Source: Solobacterium moorei (GTDB lineage Bacteria > Bacillota_I > Bacilli_A > Erysipelotrichales > Erysipelotrichaceae). From it: a stretch of DNA of 64,000 nt. This document shows positions 24,793-51,138 of the stretch, piece after piece; position 1 is the stretch's first letter, and each line of letters begins with the position of its first letter. The stretch covers positions 868,001-932,000 of the forward strand of contig NZ_AP028934.1 in assembly GCF_036323475.1 (NCBI RefSeq), read 5' to 3'. Under the pieces are notes generated by a model that did no database searches, had not been told where the DNA came from, and saw only the letters and a list, made by a program, of their open reading frames with translations. Both the position numbers and the translations under genes were made by a program.

Positions 24793-24866
24793 GCGAGCAT
24801 AATTTAATGGTAGAATGCAACCTTCCCAAGGTTGATGTGCGGGTTCGATTCCCGTTGCTCGCTCCA
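24793..24866 (+). tRNA. tRNA-Gly (CCC)
   Basis: Cloverleaf with acceptor GCGAGCA pairing with TGCTCGC, and anticodon stem CAACC/GGTTG around the loop TTCCCAA (anticodon CCC). An encoded CCA follows at 24864-24866. Its 3' end is the integration site of prophage 2; the last two bases of CCA come from the phage side of the junction. Confidence 0.95.
24849..24864 (+). repeat. attL core, 16 bp
   Basis: TTCCCGTTGCTCGCTC covers the 3' half of the T arm and acceptor of tRNA-Gly and is repeated exactly at 51123-51138. Integration keeps the tRNA gene intact. Confidence 0.9.
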
Positions 24867-24871
24867 TATAG

Positions 24872-24900
24872 AAAAGACCCGCATAAATAGCGGGTTTTCT
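24872..24900. terminator. Bidirectional terminator at attL
   Basis: ACCCGC (24877-24882) pairs with GCGGGT (24890-24895), with A-rich sequence before and TTTTCTT after. It lies on the phage side of attL and can end tRNA-Gly transcripts and leftward integrase transcripts. Confidence 0.8.
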
Positions 24901-24908
24901 TATGTAAT

Positions 24909-24941
24909 GGTCAACTTTTGGTCAACTTTTGGTCAACTTTT
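24909..24941 (+). repeat. Integrase arm-type sites, left: three tandem GGTCAACTTTT
   Basis: Three perfect, contiguous 11-bp copies lie just behind the integrase stop codon, 45 bp from attL. The same motif occurs twice near attR (51011-51033) in the same orientation. This matches arm-type binding sites of the integrase N-terminal domain. Confidence 0.75.
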
Positions 24942-24950
24942 ACTCAATTT

Positions 24951-25985
24951 TTATGTTTTTATAGCATTAATTTTATCTATCAGTTCTTTATTTGTATCAC
25001 TTAGTAGATGCGTATATGTTTTTAAAGTTGTCTCAATATCTGCGTGACCTAATCGTTTTGACACCGCAACGATATTTACACCGTTATTGATTAAGATAGT
25101 AGCATGACTATGCCGAAGATCATGCAAACGTATATTTTTTACGCCTGATGCTTTAATTGCTTTTTTAAATTGCGTCTGTATTTGTGTAATTGACAGTCCG
25201 TGATTACCGCCAAATAAGTAACCATTGCCATTTAATAATGGTTGGATATCTTCTATCAATTTATCATCCAACTGAACAACTCTTGTTGCCTTTGTTTTGG
25301 TCGGTTTTAAGCCGTTTTTGTGGTGTTTTTGGCTTGCGTGGATATTTATCCATCCATCTTTAAAATCGCTCTTCTGTAACGCTATAGCCTCACCACGACG
25401 GCAACCAGTCCAAAATAAGAACTTGAAGAACAATTTATAAATTGGAATATCGACATATTTAATGAATTTGTTAAATTCATTTACAGTCCATATATCCATT
25501 TCTTTCATGATTTCTTCATCTGTTTTTTTGAAAGAGTGCAGAATTGAGGAAATATCATTTATATCATATATCATTGAGGCATATCTAAATACAGATTTAA
25601 CATAAGAAATAGTATGATTCTTAGTTGATGTTGAATACTCTGATTTTGAAAGCATATTGTACCAGTTGGCTAATTCTTTTTTGGTTATCTTTTTGATTGG
25701 AACATTCAAATATTCAGCAAAGCGTTTATTAAAACTTTCCCAGTGTTTTTCTATCATTGTTTTTGATGATTGATGATAACTTTCCCATTGATGTGCCATT
25801 TCTCTAAAAGTCAATTCTCCGGAAGTGTCTTGCGCCAATCGCTGTGCATCTGCTTCAGCATTTAAGGCATCTCTTTTCGTTTCAAAGCCACGTTTCTTTT
25901 TCCATGATATTTTTCCCGTAATTGGATTTTTTACTTTAAAAACGTAATACCAAAGCCCAGTAGGTTTATCTTTTGCGACGGACAT
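24951..25985 (-). CDS. int: Tyrosine-type phage integrase
   Basis: A 344-residue integrase. The N-terminal arm-binding domain (about 1-60, WYYVFKVKNPITGKISWKKK) is followed by a SAM-like core-binding domain (60-160) and the catalytic domain. The catalytic set is complete: Arg in TGCRRGEAIAL, Lys in the KTKATRVVQL hairpin, HDLRHSHAT, LGHADIETT, and Tyr in LKTYTHLL. It recombines attP with tRNA-Gly attB. It is the last gene of a leftward lysogeny operon, 28 bases behind the channel gene, with ribosome site AAGAAGG. The arm repeats lie directly behind its stop. Confidence 0.95.
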   Translation of the reverse strand: MSVAKDKPTGLWYYVFKVKNPITGKISWKKKRGFETKRDALNAEADAQRLAQDTSGELTFREMAHQWESYHQSSKTMIEKHWESFNKRFAEYLNVPIKKITKKELANWYNMLSKSEYSTSTKNHTISYVKSVFRYASMIYDINDISSILHSFKKTDEEIMKEMDIWTVNEFNKFIKYVDIPIYKLFFKFLFWTGCRRGEAIALQKSDFKDGWINIHASQKHHKNGLKPTKTKATRVVQLDDKLIEDIQPLLNGNGYLFGGNHGLSITQIQTQFKKAIKASGVKNIRLHDLRHSHATILINNGVNIVAVSKRLGHADIETTLKTYTHLLSDTNKELIDKINAIKT

Positions 25986-26013
25986 ATCTAACCTTCTTTC
26001 TTTGTTTATATAT

Positions 26014-26775
26014 TTATTCGTTATTTTTAGAATTCACACTTTTCATATATCCGGCGGTGATGATGCCTGCTGGCAATGCCACAATAGCAATGCCGAATAT
26101 AGATGAAACCATTGCGACCGCTCGTCCGATAGTCGTTGTTGGATAAATATCACCATATCCGACTGTTGTAAGACTAACGATTGCCCAGTATATTGCGTCA
26201 AAGAATGATTTGAACGAATCTGGTTCAACGTTAAATATTATCAAAGCAGAAATGAATACGTATGCTGCTGATAATGTGCCGACTGCCATGAGCGGCTCTT
26301 TTGATTGCTTAAACACATCAATAATAACTGATAATGATTTTGAATATTTTGCAGCACGCGCAACTTTGAAAACCTTTAATGCCCGTACCATTTTGAATGT
26401 TCTCATCATTCTGAATATTTTAAGTAATTTAAATGAATCATTGAGTGATGTCAAAGATGGAATGATTGACAGCAGATCCATGATAGCCATTGGTGTAAAT
26501 GGGTATTTTATAAAAGAAAGTAGTGAATGTGATTTATCTCTAATATCTGCGGTAATCCATCGTAAAAGATAGTCGATTATGAAAATAACTACGGTAATTT
26601 TATCAATAAATATTAAAATATGAGTATCGTTTTTGAATAAAAGCGGAACTATACTAACAAAAATTACGATCATCATAAATAAATCGTATGCGTCGAAATC
26701 CGGAATATTATCACCGGTTGTATCTACGACATCAACTAATTCAAAAAGTCTTTGCCGCCATTTTGAATAATTCAT
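26014..26775 (-). CDS. Voltage-gated K+ channel encoded in the lysogeny operon
   Basis: A 253-residue six-helix channel of the Kv/KvAP type without a cytoplasmic RCK domain. Helices S1-S3 lie at about 28-110. S4 is the Arg/Lys-rich LKIFRMMRTFKMVRALKVFK with basic residues every third position. S5 is about 160-180, the pore loop has the K+ selectivity filter TTVGYGD, and S6 is SIFGIAIVALPAGIITAGY. It starts 2 bases behind the repressor stop with ribosome site AAGGAAG, so it should be expressed in lysogens. The function in the phage is unknown; superinfection exclusion or another conversion effect on membrane potential is an inference. Confidence 0.9.
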   Translation of the reverse strand: MNYSKWRQRLFELVDVVDTTGDNIPDFDAYDLFMMIVIFVSIVPLLFKNDTHILIFIDKITVVIFIIDYLLRWITADIRDKSHSLLSFIKYPFTPMAIMDLLSIIPSLTSLNDSFKLLKIFRMMRTFKMVRALKVFKVARAAKYSKSLSVIIDVFKQSKEPLMAVGTLSAAYVFISALIIFNVEPDSFKSFFDAIYWAIVSLTTVGYGDIYPTTTIGRAVAMVSSIFGIAIVALPAGIITAGYMKSVNSKNNE

Positions 26776-26777
26776 AA

Positions 26778-27464
26778 TTAATACTTCCTTCTTGATTCGA
26801 CGACTTTACCAATGATTGTTACCGGTTTATCTTTTATGTCTGCAAAACTAAAAAACATTGGTGCGTATTCTGGATTGAGTGAATGGAGAATGATTCCATC
26901 ATTGCGTTTAAATAGTTTCTTACAGCACGCTTCGTCACCGTTTACTTTCGCGATGACAATATCACCGTTATTTGCATCACTTTGGCTTCTGACGATAACG
27001 ATATCATTTTCATTAAATTCTGGTTGCATTGAATCACCTTTGATGCGTAACGCCAAGAACAATCCTGACTTTGCTAATTTAGGATCAATTTCTTCCCATT
27101 CATCCGGATCATCATAATTTATATCTTCAATCGCCAAATTAGGGATGCCGGCACGGCTGAATCCACGTATAGGAATAAGGGATCCTTTTTTTATTTTCTC
27201 TTCCCAATCCTGACCAAAATAAGACATAGCCATAGAAGCATTTTCATCGGTTGAATAAGATGGTGATTTATCGTCGGAATATCCTTGCAACCACAAAATA
27301 TTCACAGAGAAATAATCAGCTATTTTCTTTAATTTTTCATACTTTGGGGATGATTTTCCGCGTTTCCAATCACTGAATGTCGAAGGCGGAATTCCAGTTG
27401 CTTTTGCAACATCAGAACTTTTTACAGAAAACATTTGAAGCAATTCTAAATATCTATCATACAT
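26778..27464 (-). CDS. CI/LexA-like phage repressor with S24 peptidase domain
   Basis: A 228-residue repressor. The XRE HTH lies at about residues 12-55 (SSDVAKATGIPPSTFSDWKR) and the linker holds SRAGIPN, whose Ala-Gly is a likely self-cleavage site. The LexA-like S24 domain carries the Ser in GDSMQPEF and the Lys in VIAKVNGDE. It should bind the operators at 27477-27652 and be inactivated on RecA activation. I prefer ATG 27464 (purine tract 9 bases before) over the GTG at 27476. Its HTH closely resembles that of the Cro-like protein at 27669. Confidence 0.9.
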   Translation of the reverse strand: MYDRYLELLQMFSVKSSDVAKATGIPPSTFSDWKRGKSSPKYEKLKKIADYFSVNILWLQGYSDDKSPSYSTDENASMAMSYFGQDWEEKIKKGSLIPIRGFSRAGIPNLAIEDINYDDPDEWEEIDPKLAKSGLFLALRIKGDSMQPEFNENDIVIVRSQSDANNGDIVIAKVNGDEACCKKLFKRNDGIILHSLNPEYAPMFFSFADIKDKPVTIIGKVVESRRKY

Positions 27465-27508
27465 ATATGTTCTCACTTTCTAAAATTTAGAAAACCGAAA
27501 AATATGCG

Positions 27509-27537
27509 TTGACAATTTAGAAATCCCAATTTATAGT
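27509..27537 (+). promoter_or_regulatory. Rightward early promoter (PR-like)
   Basis: TTGACA (27509-27514), a 17-base spacer and TATAGT (27532-27537). An operator-like TTTAGAAATCCC lies in the spacer. Confidence 0.7.
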
Positions 27538-27601
27538 AATTATGTAGTTAGGAAATCTAAATAAAACGCCAGTTAAACTATGTAATATCTTTCGCAAATT
27601 T

Positions 27602-27631
27602 ATTATATATAGGATTTCCTAATTACGTCAA
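27602..27631 (-). promoter_or_regulatory. Leftward promoter candidate for the repressor operon
   Basis: On the minus strand TTGACG (27631-27626), an 18-base spacer and TATAAT (27607-27602), with an operator-like site in the spacer. It faces the rightward promoter. A weaker back-to-back alternative, TTGGGA-17-CATATT, lies near 27500-27530. Confidence 0.55.
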
Positions 27632-27668
27632 TAAATAATAAGAAATTCCTAAAAAAGGGGGTGAAGAG

Positions 27669-27878
27669 GTGCAACCAGATTATGAAAAATTTGAACAATT
27701 GCTGAAACAACGAAATATTTCGGTTTCAACGATTTCTGCTGAAACAGGAATCCCGGGCAGTACATTCAGCGATTGGAAAAAAGGAAAAAGCTATCCTAAA
27801 GTGCCGAAGTTCTATAAGATAGCAAATTATTTCGGGGTTTCAATGGAAGCGCTGTTAAGTGATTCTATGGAAGTTTAA
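27669..27878 (+). CDS. Cro-like XRE repressor
   Basis: A 69-residue single-domain HTH protein. ISAETGIPGSTFSDWKKGKS is nearly the same recognition region as GIPPSTFSDWKRGKSSPK of the divergent repressor, so both should read the same operators. The GTG start at 27669 follows a strong GGGGGTGA ribosome site. It is the first rightward gene of prophage 2, in the classic Cro position. Confidence 0.85.
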   Translation: MQPDYEKFEQLLKQRNISVSTISAETGIPGSTFSDWKKGKSYPKVPKFYKIANYFGVSMEALLSDSMEV

Positions 27879-27893
27879 AGGAAGGGATGAAAA

Positions 27894-28172
27894 ATGCGAT
27901 TACACAGCAACGCTGAACTTGTCAGAATGCCTTATCTAAAGAAAACGGATGTCGGAAGATTGTCCGGTTATACGAGAAAAGACTTAGATACATTGTTTAA
28001 TAAGGCACAGGAAATTGACAAACAAGAATTAGGCATCAATTACATTTTTTCTTACAAAGTAAGAACGAAAACCGTTGCAAAATTAATTGGATACACGCTG
28101 AAAGAATTATTGAATATGTACCCGGAACAAAAGAAAAACGCTCCGTCCGTCGAAAGTAAGAGCGCTCAATAG
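27894..28172 (+). CDS. Small early protein with an internal duplication
   Basis: A 92-residue protein with two similar halves: TDVGRLSGYTRKDLDTLF (about residues 19-36) and TKTVAKLIGYTLKELLNMY (about 59-77). Each looks like a short helix-turn-helix or excisionase-like helical unit. The function is unknown; the position after cro would fit an excisionase, antirepressor or early regulator. Ribosome site GGAAGGGATG before the ATG. Confidence 0.6.
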   Translation: MRLHSNAELVRMPYLKKTDVGRLSGYTRKDLDTLFNKAQEIDKQELGINYIFSYKVRTKTVAKLIGYTLKELLNMYPEQKKNAPSVESKSAQ

Positions 28173-36469: not shown

Positions 36470-36841
36470 ATGGCAAGAAAGAAGAAGGTAGACAAAGAAG
36501 CTCTTATTTTAGAAGAGTTTAAGAGACTTACGGTTATTTTCCAAGATATACCAAATGAGAAGAGAGAACTATGTACTAATCTGATGCAAAATGCAGCTTT
36601 TATGGTCATATCTCTACGTGAATTACAAGATGATTTGCGTGTTAATGGATGGATTGAAGAGTATCAGAATGGTGAAAACCAGTCTGGAAGAAAACCTTCT
36701 AGTGCATCACAGGTATATAACAAATTAATTTCAAACTACAATAACATCATCAAACAGCTTGTTGGGTTGTTGCCTGATGACAAACAAGAAAGTGTTAAGG
36801 CAACTGTAGATCCAATGATGGAGTTCTTTAATACTAAATGA
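36470..36841 (+). CDS. terS: Terminase small subunit, P27 family
   Basis: A 123-residue helical protein: Lys-rich start, then ELCTNLMQNAAFMVISLREL, a Gly-poor loop with YQNGENQSGRKPSSASQVYN, and NNIIKQLVGLLPDD. This order fits the P27-type small terminases. It recognises the phage DNA end for the large subunit encoded next, with which it overlaps by four bases. AAAGG ribosome site before ATG 36470. Confidence 0.85.
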   Translation: MARKKKVDKEALILEEFKRLTVIFQDIPNEKRELCTNLMQNAAFMVISLRELQDDLRVNGWIEEYQNGENQSGRKPSSASQVYNKLISNYNNIIKQLVGLLPDDKQESVKATVDPMMEFFNTK

Positions 36842-38508
36842 TTGAGTACGATCATACTAACTACATTCTTAAATACTGGAATGAAATCAAAAACAAAAAG
36901 ATTGTAGTCAGTAAGAAGATTGAAAAGGTTTATCAGGGGCTGGCTAATGATGTTAAAAGCAAAAGAAGTAAATATAAGTTTGATATAGATAGGGCATCAA
37001 GACCTATTTTTTTTATTGAATCATTCTGCAAGCAGTCAAAAGGTGCAATTGGTGAACCGATTAAACTACGACTATTTCAGAAGGCGGCTATACAAGCTAT
37101 TTTTGGATTTGTTGATAAGAATGGAGTACGCCGATTCAATGAAGTGCTATGGATTATGGGGCGTAAAAACGGTAAATCTGTTCTACTATCAGCAATATCT
37201 CTATACATGATGATAGGAGACCACGAAGGTGGTGCAGAAATAGATTGTGTTGCAAGTAAGAAAGACCAGGCAAAGATTGTATTTAATGAATCTAGAAATA
37301 TGGTCAGACAATCTCCGTATTTATCAAAGTATATCGCTAAGCGAAAGAGTGATATGTATTCTGATTTTAATTTCGGAGTATTCCAGCCACTATCAAGTGA
37401 CTCAAATACATTAGATGGATTGAATGTACATTGTGGTATTATCGATGAATTACATTCAATTAAGGACCGTAATATCTACGATGTAGTTAAACAGGGTATG
37501 TCTGCTAGAAAGCAACCGATTTTGTTTACAATAACTACATCAGGATTTAACAGAGAAGGTATTTATGACGATCTTTATGAATATGCTGATAAGGTCATTA
37601 ATAAAGACACTAATGATGAACGTTTTTTGCCACTCATTTATGAACTTGATAGTACCAAAGAATGGGATGATGAAAAGATGTGGCCAAAGGCTAATCCAGG
37701 ATTAGGAATGATTAAAGCAAAATCATTTCTGCGTGAAATGGTAAGCAGAGCAAAAGTGGATTCTAAGATAAAAGCAACTGTACTTACTAAAGACTTTAAT
37801 CTAAAGAATGTAACATCAGAGACTTGGCTATCTTGGGAACAACTTGATTGCGAGGATACGTTCTCAATAGATGATGTTGCTAATACATATGCGATTGGTG
37901 GATGCGATTTATCTGCTACTACTGACCTTACTGCAGCTACACTCTTAATTCGTAAAAAAGATGATGAGAAAATCTATGTTTTACAGCATTATTTTTTACC
38001 ACAAGCACGAATTGACTACTTAGAAAAGACATCTTCAAAAGAAGCACCATATCAAGTTTGGGCGGACAGAGGATTACTTACTATATGTAACGGAAATATG
38101 GTCAACTATAGCGATGTTACGCAATGGTACAAAGATATGCGTGATAAGTATGGAATTGATTTGTGGAAGATGGGATATGATAGAGCATTAGCTGGATATT
38201 GGGCTGATGAAATGGCTGGAGAATTTGGACAGTCTGTAATGGAAAAGGTTGCACAGGGCCCATTTACTTGGACTGCACCGATGAAGGAACTTGGTGCAAG
38301 ACTGGCAAATAAAGAGATTAACTATGACAACAATCCAATGCTGAAATGGTGTTTATCAAACACTGGAATCAAAGCGCAGGGTAGTATTGAATCAATTCAG
38401 CCTGTAAAGATACAACAGAATAGGCGTATTGATGGTATGGTTAGTTTGTTAAATGCATATGTAATATATGTAAAGTATCGTGATGATTACTTGAATTTAG
38501 TTGGATAG
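36838..38508 (+). CDS. terL: Terminase large subunit, HK97/P27-associated
   Basis: A 556-residue packaging motor. The ATPase has a Walker A-like MGRKNGKSVLLSAIS (about residue 105), a Walker B-like GIIDELHS (about 201) and the TTSGF coupling motif. The nuclease half begins GGCDLSATTDLTA (about 360) and continues with Asp residues near RRIDGMVSLLNA. It is unrelated in detail to the TerL of prophage 1 (different Walker A context). ATGA overlap with terS. Confidence 0.93.
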   Translation: MIEYDHTNYILKYWNEIKNKKIVVSKKIEKVYQGLANDVKSKRSKYKFDIDRASRPIFFIESFCKQSKGAIGEPIKLRLFQKAAIQAIFGFVDKNGVRRFNEVLWIMGRKNGKSVLLSAISLYMMIGDHEGGAEIDCVASKKDQAKIVFNESRNMVRQSPYLSKYIAKRKSDMYSDFNFGVFQPLSSDSNTLDGLNVHCGIIDELHSIKDRNIYDVVKQGMSARKQPILFTITTSGFNREGIYDDLYEYADKVINKDTNDERFLPLIYELDSTKEWDDEKMWPKANPGLGMIKAKSFLREMVSRAKVDSKIKATVLTKDFNLKNVTSETWLSWEQLDCEDTFSIDDVANTYAIGGCDLSATTDLTAATLLIRKKDDEKIYVLQHYFLPQARIDYLEKTSSKEAPYQVWADRGLLTICNGNMVNYSDVTQWYKDMRDKYGIDLWKMGYDRALAGYWADEMAGEFGQSVMEKVAQGPFTWTAPMKELGARLANKEINYDNNPMLKWCLSNTGIKAQGSIESIQPVKIQQNRRIDGMVSLLNAYVIYVKYRDDYLNLVG

Positions 38509-38516
38509 GAGAAGAG

Positions 38517-39716
38517 ATGGGATTATTTGATATTTTTAAACGGTCTAGATCCACATATAATAGCGATTTTAAACCATATGACATCAACACGTGGAGTTAT
38601 CGCTCGTTTGACGGTCAAACATTAAATATTGACTTAGTACGTGCATCTGTGGATGCACTGGCCAGAAACATTGCTAAAATGTCATTGCGAGCTGTTATTG
38701 CAAATAAGGATGGCACTACTACAGTTGATTATGTTTCTGACATTGCAAAGGTTTTAAAGCATCCAAATCCATACATGACAATGTATGATTTTTTATATAA
38801 AACAAGTGCGATGTACTTCCTGAACAATAATGCATTTATTTATCCTGAATATGATGAAAAAGGATATCTAATAGCACTACATCCAATTAACTACAAGACA
38901 TTTAAACTATATGAATTGAACGAAAAGTTATATGCTTCATTCCAGTTGAGTTATACGCGTACGTATACTGTGCGATATGACCGTATCATCCATCTTAGAA
39001 ATCACTTTATTAGAGATGATTTAATGGGTGATGCGAATGCGGCCCTTTATACAGCATGTGAGTTACTTGATGCTCAAAACCAAGGAATCATAAATGGAAT
39101 AAAAAATAGTGCTATTATTCGCGGAATTTTAAAGACAGTAAATGTTATTAAAGAAGATGATCTTACAAAGGCAAAGGAGAGATTTATAAAAGATAATCTT
39201 TCTGCACAGAATAATGGTGGTGTAATTGCTGTAGATGGAAAGTTTGACTATCAGAATATTGAGTCGAAACCATACATTGTTGATTCTGCAACAATGGAAC
39301 AAGCGAAGAATAAGATTTTTACATACTTTGGAGTAAATGAAGAATTCCTACAAAACAAATTTACATCAGACCAGTATGAAGCTGTGTATGAAGGAAGATT
39401 AGAACCGTTTGCAATTCTTCTAACAGACTCTTTAACGTATGCGCTGTATACAGAAAGAGAACGAGGCTTTGGCAATGAAATAGAAGTCAATATGTCTAGA
39501 TTGAAATACCAACCAACTGCGACAATAGTAAATGTTATTAGCGCAACGAAAGAACTTGGATTATTTACAAGAGACGACTACAGAAGCATGCTTGGATATA
39601 CTCCATTAGGACATGAACGTGGTGGTGATGAAATCATGATTGCAGTAAATAACTACGTAAAGGAATCTGATATTAAGGCGGAGGAAGATGAAGGAAATGG
39701 AAATGATTCAAAATAA
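38517..39716 (+). CDS. Phage portal protein, HK97 family
   Basis: A 399-residue HK97-type portal: start SFDGQTLNIDLVRASVDALA, then VLKHPNPYMTMYDFLYKTSA (about 85), FLNNNAFIYPEYDEKGYL, and the conserved stem region FGVNEEFLQNKFTSDQYEAV (about 275). It follows TerL by 8 bases; its end overlaps the protease gene by 29 bases. Confidence 0.93.
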   Translation: MGLFDIFKRSRSTYNSDFKPYDINTWSYRSFDGQTLNIDLVRASVDALARNIAKMSLRAVIANKDGTTTVDYVSDIAKVLKHPNPYMTMYDFLYKTSAMYFLNNNAFIYPEYDEKGYLIALHPINYKTFKLYELNEKLYASFQLSYTRTYTVRYDRIIHLRNHFIRDDLMGDANAALYTACELLDAQNQGIINGIKNSAIIRGILKTVNVIKEDDLTKAKERFIKDNLSAQNNGGVIAVDGKFDYQNIESKPYIVDSATMEQAKNKIFTYFGVNEEFLQNKFTSDQYEAVYEGRLEPFAILLTDSLTYALYTERERGFGNEIEVNMSRLKYQPTATIVNVISATKELGLFTRDDYRSMLGYTPLGHERGGDEIMIAVNNYVKESDIKAEEDEGNGNDSK

Positions 39717-40344
39717 AAAAGAAAATCGCTCATTCTTTTGCGACGTTGTAACGCGAAGCGATGAGCAACACGGAAACGTTATTGAGGGCGTACCGATTGT
39801 ATTCGATAAAGAAACGGACTTTGGATTCTGTAAAGAGGTAATCGATAGTGGTGCATTAAATCAAACGGACTTAAAGGATGTCCGTTTTTTAATTAACCAC
39901 GATACAGACCAGTTGCCATTGGCGCGCAGTAGAAACAATAACGCAAATTCAACGATGCAATTATCTGTGCAAGAAGATGGATTGCATGTTCGCGTTGATT
40001 TAGATACAGAAAATAATTCAAGAGCAAGAGAATTATATTCAGCTGTTAATCGTCAAGATTGTAGTGGCATGTCCTTTATGTTCACTGTTGACGGAGAGAG
40101 ATGGGAAGGACTGGATACAGAGAAACCGGTCAGACATATTACAAGTATTTCAAAGGTATTTGAAGTATCAGCAGTTACATTCCCTGCGTATGATCAGACT
40201 TCTATTAATGCTAGATCACTGGATAGTGTGAAAGCGTCACTGGATAGTGAAAGAGAAAAAATGCAAGCCAATCATATGGAAGAAATGCGCAATGCATTAA
40301 AAGCTAGAGCAGAGCGCCTAGCTAGAAAGGATTCTGATGAGTAA
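39688..40344 (+). CDS. Prohead maturation protease, HK97 family
   Basis: A 218-residue S78-type protease. FLINHDTDQLPLARS carries the catalytic His (about residue 68), QDCSGMSFMF the Ser (about 129), and FEVSAVTFPAYDQT the conserved follow-on strand. It processes the capsid N-terminal delta domain. Possible starts are ATG 39688 and ATG 39697; I keep 39688 because of the GGAGGAAG ribosome site. Overlaps the capsid gene by eight bases. Confidence 0.92.
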   Translation: MKEMEMIQNKKENRSFFCDVVTRSDEQHGNVIEGVPIVFDKETDFGFCKEVIDSGALNQTDLKDVRFLINHDTDQLPLARSRNNNANSTMQLSVQEDGLHVRVDLDTENNSRARELYSAVNRQDCSGMSFMFTVDGERWEGLDTEKPVRHITSISKVFEVSAVTFPAYDQTSINARSLDSVKASLDSEREKMQANHMEEMRNALKARAERLARKDSDE

Positions 40345-41452
40345 GGAATTACGTGAGTGTATTGAAGATTTAAATAAATTACAGCAGCGAGCAACATTGA
40401 TTTCTAAAGAAGCTGAAACAGCAGATGAAAAACGTTGCACGGAGTTAAACACAGAACTTGACTCTATCGAGGAAAGAAAAAAAGAACTGTTGCTAAAGAA
40501 ACAAGAGCTAGAAGAAAAAGACAAAGAAGAAAGAGCAGCAGCCGAAAAAATTGAAAATGGAAAAGGTACGGAAGTAAAACTTCCGACGGAGGAGAGAAAG
40601 ATGGAAAAGAATATTACAAGAGACATGGTTGAATATCGTGACGCGTTCTATGCGTTCTTGAAGGGTGAAGCAACACCAGAACAACGCGCAGCATTAATTA
40701 CAACAGACAATGGTGTTGCATTGCCAAAACAGTTAGATGATAAGATTTGGGATAATATCCACACAGCACATCCAATCTTGGCAGACATTGATATTAAGAA
40801 TACAGGCGTTATTCTAGAAGTAACAAAGCATACAGCAATTACTGCAGGAAAGGCTAAGAAGGTAACAGAAGGTACTGCAAATGATAATGAAGCAAATACA
40901 TTCGTTAAGGTTGTATTAAACGGTAACGATTACTCTAAGAGTGTTGAATTATCTTATGCAGAGGCAAAGATGACGCAGGGTGCTTTAGAAGATTATTTAG
41001 CTACAGAAATTGCTGCAGATTTAGGTGAAGCATTGGCGACTGATGTATTTGCACAAATTAAGGCTGACTGTGTTGCGAATAAAGTTGTAGCAGCTACACT
41101 TGATTATGCATCATATATTTCTGCATTTGGAAAGGTATCAGCTGGTAGCAATCTAGTTGTATATGCATCACGTGGAACTAAGTTCGGCTCTGTATTATCT
41201 CTAGTGGATAAGAACGGACAACCTGTATTCCGTGATGGTGTAACATTTGGTTCAGAAGTTAAGGAAGATTCTGCAGCTGGTAATGAAATCTTCATCTTAG
41301 ATCCAAAGATGTTCGTTTTAAACGTTGTGCAACCTGTTATGATCGAAACAGATAAGGATATTAAGGCGCACAAGATTATCTACTCTGGATATACACGTGC
41401 ACAGGGTACAATGCGTAATGCAGGTGCAGGCGCATTTATTGCTAAGGCTTAA
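40337..41452 (+). CDS. Major capsid protein, HK97 family
   Basis: A 371-residue HK97-fold capsid protein. Residues 1-85 are a charged coiled-coil delta domain (KRCTELNTELDSIEERKKEL) that acts as internal scaffold and should be removed by the protease. The core starts near 95 with TRDMVEYRDAFYAFLKGEAT, then ITTDNGVALPKQLDDKIWD, and ends in GTMRNAGAGAFIAKA. A strong terminator follows directly. Confidence 0.94.
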   Translation: MSKELRECIEDLNKLQQRATLISKEAETADEKRCTELNTELDSIEERKKELLLKKQELEEKDKEERAAAEKIENGKGTEVKLPTEERKMEKNITRDMVEYRDAFYAFLKGEATPEQRAALITTDNGVALPKQLDDKIWDNIHTAHPILADIDIKNTGVILEVTKHTAITAGKAKKVTEGTANDNEANTFVKVVLNGNDYSKSVELSYAEAKMTQGALEDYLATEIAADLGEALATDVFAQIKADCVANKVVAATLDYASYISAFGKVSAGSNLVVYASRGTKFGSVLSLVDKNGQPVFRDGVTFGSEVKEDSAAGNEIFILDPKMFVLNVVQPVMIETDKDIKAHKIIYSGYTRAQGTMRNAGAGAFIAKA

Positions 41453-50986: not shown

Positions 50987-51010
50987 ATATGCTTGCATGC
51001 GTAATTTTGT

Positions 51011-51033
51011 GGTCAACTTTTTGGTCAACTTTT
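51011..51033 (+). repeat. Integrase arm-type sites, right: two GGTCAACTTTT
   Basis: GGTCAACTTTT occurs at 51011-51021 and 51023-51033, in the same orientation as the three left copies. It lies 90 bp before attR. Confidence 0.75.
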
Positions 51034-51122: not shown

Positions 51123-51138
51123 TTCCCGTTGCTCGCTC
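51123..51138 (+). repeat. attR core, 16 bp
   Basis: TTCCCGTTGCTCGCTC, identical to 24849-24864. The original host tRNA-Gly would continue here as TTAAAATG, without an encoded CCA. Confidence 0.9.

Follow-up and report, generated by a model that had tools for sequence, protein, structure and literature searches.

A Kv-type potassium channel gene recurs as lysogeny cargo between repressor and integrase of temperate phages and may act against superinfection

The superinfection-exclusion gene ltp of Streptococcus phage TP-J34, flanked by a CI/metalloproteinase pair on one side and int on the other, is transcribed from the prophage and encodes a product that blocks DNA injection (PMC3952083). Lambda RexB and its mycobacteriophage and Gordonia phage analogues have been described as ion channels that depolarize infected cells (PMC7542560), and a depolarization of the host linked to the chlorovirus channel Kcv stops a second infection (PMC7019647). 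As regards Kv-type channels, a 2018 survey counts that of Lactobacillus phage PLE2 (YP_009282368.1) among the viral K+ channels and describes it as identical to a host-group protein (PMC6163359); a word search of this survey returned no mention of lysogeny or prophage, and the same kind of search in the paper on PLE2 and membrane vesicles turned up nothing on the channel, on the repressor, or on transcription of the prophage. In the literature searched, we found no report of a recurrent placement of Kv channels in lysogeny modules and no match to the exact phrase "phage-encoded potassium channel."

The gene considered here belongs to a stretch of 64,000 nucleotides of Solobacterium moorei DNA (hereafter the window; Table 1) and can be set beside each of these systems. 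As with Ltp, a proven case of superinfection exclusion, the product is predicted to be membrane-associated and its gene occupies the position between repressor and integrase, but Ltp is a lipoprotein and not a channel. The role that we propose below, that of a membrane channel expressed in lysogeny, resembles the RexAB type, which differs by a membrane component of 4 TM and by the requirement for a cytoplasmic partner of the RexA type. Chlorovirus Kcv is likewise a viral K+ channel, but a pore-only one of 82-94 aa, located in the internal virion membrane of lytic algal viruses. The PLE2 gene shares both the Kv type and the position, between CI/metalloprotease and integrase; since its product is only about 31% identical to the window channel over 78%, it represents a distant subfamily. 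The initial annotation had set the channel apart from known superinfection-exclusion proteins, and this distinction stands only in part: lambda RexB is described as a depolarizing ion channel (PMC7542560), albeit not one of the Kv type.

Table 1. Features of the prophage that carries the channel gene (window coordinates)
Feature	Position	Strand	Remarks
tRNA-Gly (ccc)	24793..24866	+	probable integration target
Putative att core, left	24849..24864	+	16 bp, within the 3' part of tRNA-Gly
Terminator-like hairpin	24877..24895	-	past the integrase; hairpin count not above chance
Copies of the 11-bp direct repeat GGTCAACTTTT	24908..24941	+	similar sequence at 51010-51033
Tyrosine integrase	24951..25985	-	Phage_integrase, Arm-DNA-bind_4; downstream of the channel
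Kv-type K+ channel gene	26014..26775	-	ATG start, 253 aa, S1-S6, S4 sensor, TTVGYGD filter
CI-like repressor	26778..27476	-	HTH and S24 peptidase domain; upstream of the channel
Sigma-70-like promoter	27602..27631	-	upstream of the repressor; 11/12 consensus matches; total of such sites not above chance
Divergent Cro-like HTH gene	27669..27878	+	begins the rightward lytic operon
Large terminase (TerL)	36838..38508	+	hallmark; indicates more than a prophage fragment
Portal protein	38517..39716	+	
Major capsid protein	40337..41452	+	
Putative att core, right	51123..51138	+	16 bp, identical to the left core

The two 16-bp repeats are probably the att sites bounding a prophage of about 26 kb (about 24849-51138) inserted in tRNA-Gly, and the GGTCAACTTTT repeats near each of its ends are probable arm sites of the integrase. 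An apparent second prophage occupies window positions 1-22400 as its left neighbor; its tail/lysin end lies in its right part and it finishes near tRNA-Trp and tRNA-Glu. In the lysogeny module, 2 bp separate the repressor stop (26778-26780) from the channel ATG (26775), in agreement with the initial annotation, which had placed the gene between repressor and integrase at precisely this distance, and 28 bp separate the channel from the integrase gene. As these gaps are so short, no partner gene fits beside the channel, and no gene of the RexA type was found between repressor and integrase. The likely Shine-Dalgarno sequence of the channel gene (AAGGAAG) falls within the final repressor codons, and the expression of both genes is therefore probably coupled. 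The repressor-channel-integrase operon rests mainly on this layout because the counts of promoter and terminator patterns are not above chance; on the channel strand, no terminator-like hairpin is listed between the three genes, a pattern whose count is itself not above chance. Judging from the gene layout, the channel is likely expressed in the lysogen.

The channel protein exceeds the Pfam cut-offs of both Ion_trans (8.9e-28) and Ion_trans_2 (1.5e-16), matches an entry to which PHROG attaches no function (phrog_7872, 3.2e-39) and, in a phmmer search against PDB, retrieves KCNQ2 (1.1e-21) as well as Kv2.1, Kv1.2, and KvAP. An AF2 model computed from an alignment of 32 window and locus sequences reaches a mean pLDDT of 82.7, and its helices agree with S1-S6 and a pore helix. 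VIA-align superposes this model on Kv4.2 over 225 residues (Z 15.0, rmsd 5.0 A), and chains of Kv4, Kv1.3, KCNQ, and Shaker make up the top structural matches (Z 12-15), which denote a fold class and nothing finer because the rmsd amounts to 5-9 A. In common with KvAP, Kv1-Kv4, and KCNQ (PF00520), the protein possesses six transmembrane helices and a pore loop, Arg/Lys triplets in S4 with their counter-charges in S2 (F-x-x-D-x-x-x-R; F65/D68/R72) and S3 (Asp; D100), and a TVGYGD filter of the T-x-G-Y/F-G-D form (T203-T204-V-G-Y-G-D209), and all these S2, S3, and filter residues are kept across its relatives. A lysine or an arginine stands at each third position of S4 from K116 to K146, making 11 consecutive basic residues where relatives have 7 to 11; since the helix is interrupted around residue 135 in the model, the last of them may be located in the S4-S5 linker.

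Unlike the Kv and KCNQ channels, the window protein has only 253 aa, is devoid of T1, CaM-binding, RCK, and CNBD regions, has a run of 11 basic triplets, and is encoded in a prophage beside a repressor. According to Pfam and to the AF2 model, neither RCK/CNBD nor any other cytoplasmic domain follows S6, as the chain stops just past this helix. The initial annotation's description of a full six-helix channel with an S4 sensor and a TTVGYGD filter, and with no cytoplasmic regulatory domain, is thus borne out by Pfam, the PDB matches, the model, and the residues themselves. From its sequence, the product is predicted to be a Kv/KvAP-type channel that assembles as a tetramer, opens in response to voltage, and conducts K+ selectively.

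The initial annotation had suggested looking for homologous channels at the same place in other prophages, and such channels are indeed found there. Relatives were collected from IMG/VR, GTDB contigs, and phage records, and a locus was scored by a same-strand repressor upstream and a recombinase downstream, each within 2.5 kb, using HMMs of the window's proteins and of one serine recombinase. In the close family, the full order occurs in 24 of the 37 relatives from viral collections (one of the 37, Dulem virus 33, comes from phage records); among the others, some lose just one side to a contig end and the remainder are found at other places or in host flanks. With the window itself and three genome-collection loci included, the full order reaches 28 loci, a number that includes near-duplicates such as L109/L112, L105/L108, and L111/L115. 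Among the 34 relatives with a same-strand repressor upstream, 15 have a channel gene that overlaps the repressor or begins no more than 30 bp from it. A more distant subfamily, with about 30% identity and retrieved with phages PLE2 and JNU_P5, both of which show the repressor-channel-integrase order, and with an Enterococcus phage contig, exhibits the same arrangement in about 31 loci of Enterococcus/Lactobacillus-type prophages, including L. casei PLE2: a repressor, often a metalloprotease-like gene, the channel, and an integrase, with tyrosine recombinases or, in three loci, serine recombinases. The slot preference, 24 of 31 against a chance of 15% per phage gene, corresponds to a p of about 1e-14, given that both the 15% rate and the 31 assessable loci are assumed and that the loci are partly non-independent. 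When the window integrase or repressor was used as query, the IMG/VR protein searches returned only the window's own record. An Ion_trans gene of the haloarchaeal Halorubrum virus Humcor1 (L007), 27% identical, is situated outside a repressor-integrase slot.

In these prophages, the channel gene hence recurs between repressor and integrase on their strand, and we regard both the identity of the channel and its status as recurrent lysogeny cargo as nearly certain. As many phages couple the channel genetically to their repressor, it might be thought to serve the phage's own cycle, by sensing or setting the membrane potential to steer induction or by guarding the lysogen from premature collapse; we consider this improbable, for the channel is missing from the related elements examined and a position in the repressor operon predicts lysogenic and not lytic expression.

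The evolutionary history of the channels argues further for their usefulness. Most of the relatives on genome contigs reside in chromosomal neighborhoods. For 58 channels (33 from phages and 25 others), selected after a first tree of 76 by removing distant or ambiguous loci, the maximum-likelihood tree requires 15 changes between phage and chromosome labels, at least nine of which are forced by well-supported branches; the first tree requires 19, at least seven of them forced, and in both cases the changes are counted without a direction of exchange. A monophyly of the phage channels is rejected (AU p 8.4e-6, lnL difference 337), which excludes a single phage lineage. The idea that the chromosomal loci are overlooked prophages was also rejected, since their neighborhoods, judged by eye, are of the housekeeping kind with no repressor or integrase match nearby. 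According to this tree, Clostridia chromosomes and unrelated temperate phages have traded such channels many times, often by separate captures, and such a repeated exchange into one slot argues for a use of the channel and against an accident. The dN/dS between phage copies mostly ranges from 0.05 to 0.2, with several pairs at saturated dS and with uninformative pairs of very few changes; the phage copies are therefore under purifying selection and kept functional.

The window channel itself is nested within a group (100/99) of chromosomal copies of its genus and is sister (98/85) to one of them, 71% identical. This grouping with the host genus would suit a functionless hitchhiker derived from the chance capture of a host gene; we hold this explanation to be very improbable, because the dN/dS values largely contradict it, the same slot has been entered repeatedly, and the sensor and filter residues are intact. 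The initial annotation had itself named the lack of a conserved link to prophages, as in a recent chance capture, as grounds against its reading. To judge by its sister, the window gene does seem to derive from the host genus, but the association with prophages recurs in the 28 and about 31 loci given above; recurrence, several exchanges, and purifying selection contradict recent chance capture as the whole account. With the same spot occupied again and again, often through separate captures, the channel is probably useful to the dormant phage or to its host.

Used as a query, the window integrase retrieved two relatives encoded elsewhere in the host genome, 68% and 57% identical, each preceded by an AbiD/Abi_2 gene (Pfam 1.9e-26 and 4.2e-33; PADLOC AbiD 1.6e-26 and 3.8e-43); PADLOC defense models gave no match to the channel. 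In the first element, a repressor-like region, split into two ORFs in our reading, lies on one side of the AbiD gene and the integrase on the other; the second (L271) has no recognizable repressor and a transposase-like gene nearby. This AbiD prophage with the repressor-like region (L270, G000:C1:1914500-1921500) and window positions 24951-28172 share near-identical flanking protein sequence, at the N-terminus of the integrase and in an early protein of 80 aa, which suggests that lysogeny cargo has been exchanged between the two prophages. In other relatives of the integrase, the slot contains NYN-domain or PemK-domain proteins, toxin-domain genes thus being found there as well as abortive-infection ones, or membrane proteins or nothing recognizable, so that proteins with no known defense role are carried there too. 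The AbiD-type genes in the equivalent slot are our main sequence-based reason to favor an anti-phage role. A gene of the DUF4236 family (PF14020) lies within 109 bp of the channel in all eight loci of the first set that have one (L114, L023, L154, L018, L024, L109, L112, and L146, phages and chromosomes included), a count that is partly circular since five of the eight seeded the model; as a channel partner, DUF4236 was rejected, a channel being present within about 1.5 kb in 0 of 26 DUF4236 loci of the host order, and it is retained as a lead.

The main rival to an anti-phage role is lysogenic conversion, in which the channel would set the membrane potential or the K+ balance of the host, with consequences for stress, depolarizing bacteriocins, or biofilm signaling, and the phage would gain only through a fitter host. 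Close homologues of the channel are stand-alone chromosomal genes in housekeeping neighborhoods; the protein is therefore not specific to phages and may take part in ordinary K+ physiology. The S4 charge runs and the filter are common to phage and chromosomal copies, and no second Ion_trans gene was found in the 2.6 Mb host genome, so the prophage could supply a function that the host lacks. By itself, however, host physiology explains neither the preference for one slot nor the AbiD genes found before the integrase in related elements, and we deem it unlikely, although less so than the other alternatives considered.

We thus favor, with a probability of roughly 50%, a lysogeny cargo whose K+ conductance, triggered by voltage, keeps out superinfecting phages or aborts their infection, the anti-phage step being a hypothesis. 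The prophage would bear the channel as part of an operon ending in the integrase and would produce it together with the repressor; the channel would stay mostly closed at the resting potential, and the depolarization of the membrane by an incoming phage would move S4 and open it. The ensuing efflux of K+ would shift the potential or drain the cell of K+, whereby DNA entry is stopped or the infection aborted, and the resident prophage would survive superinfection. Depending on external K+, a K+ conductance alone might hyperpolarize instead of depolarizing the membrane. It is conceivable, although we advance it tentatively, that temperate phages have recruited host Kv channels many times as a single-gene immunity combining voltage sensor and effector.

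The role of Kv-type channels in bacteria is a long-standing question, and their repeated recruitment by phages into an immunity-type slot suggests a concrete selective advantage. If the proposed role is true, one protein would act as both the sensor (voltage) and the effector (K+ efflux) of a defense that needs neither nucleotide signal nor partner, and bacterial electrical signaling would be tied to phage immunity.
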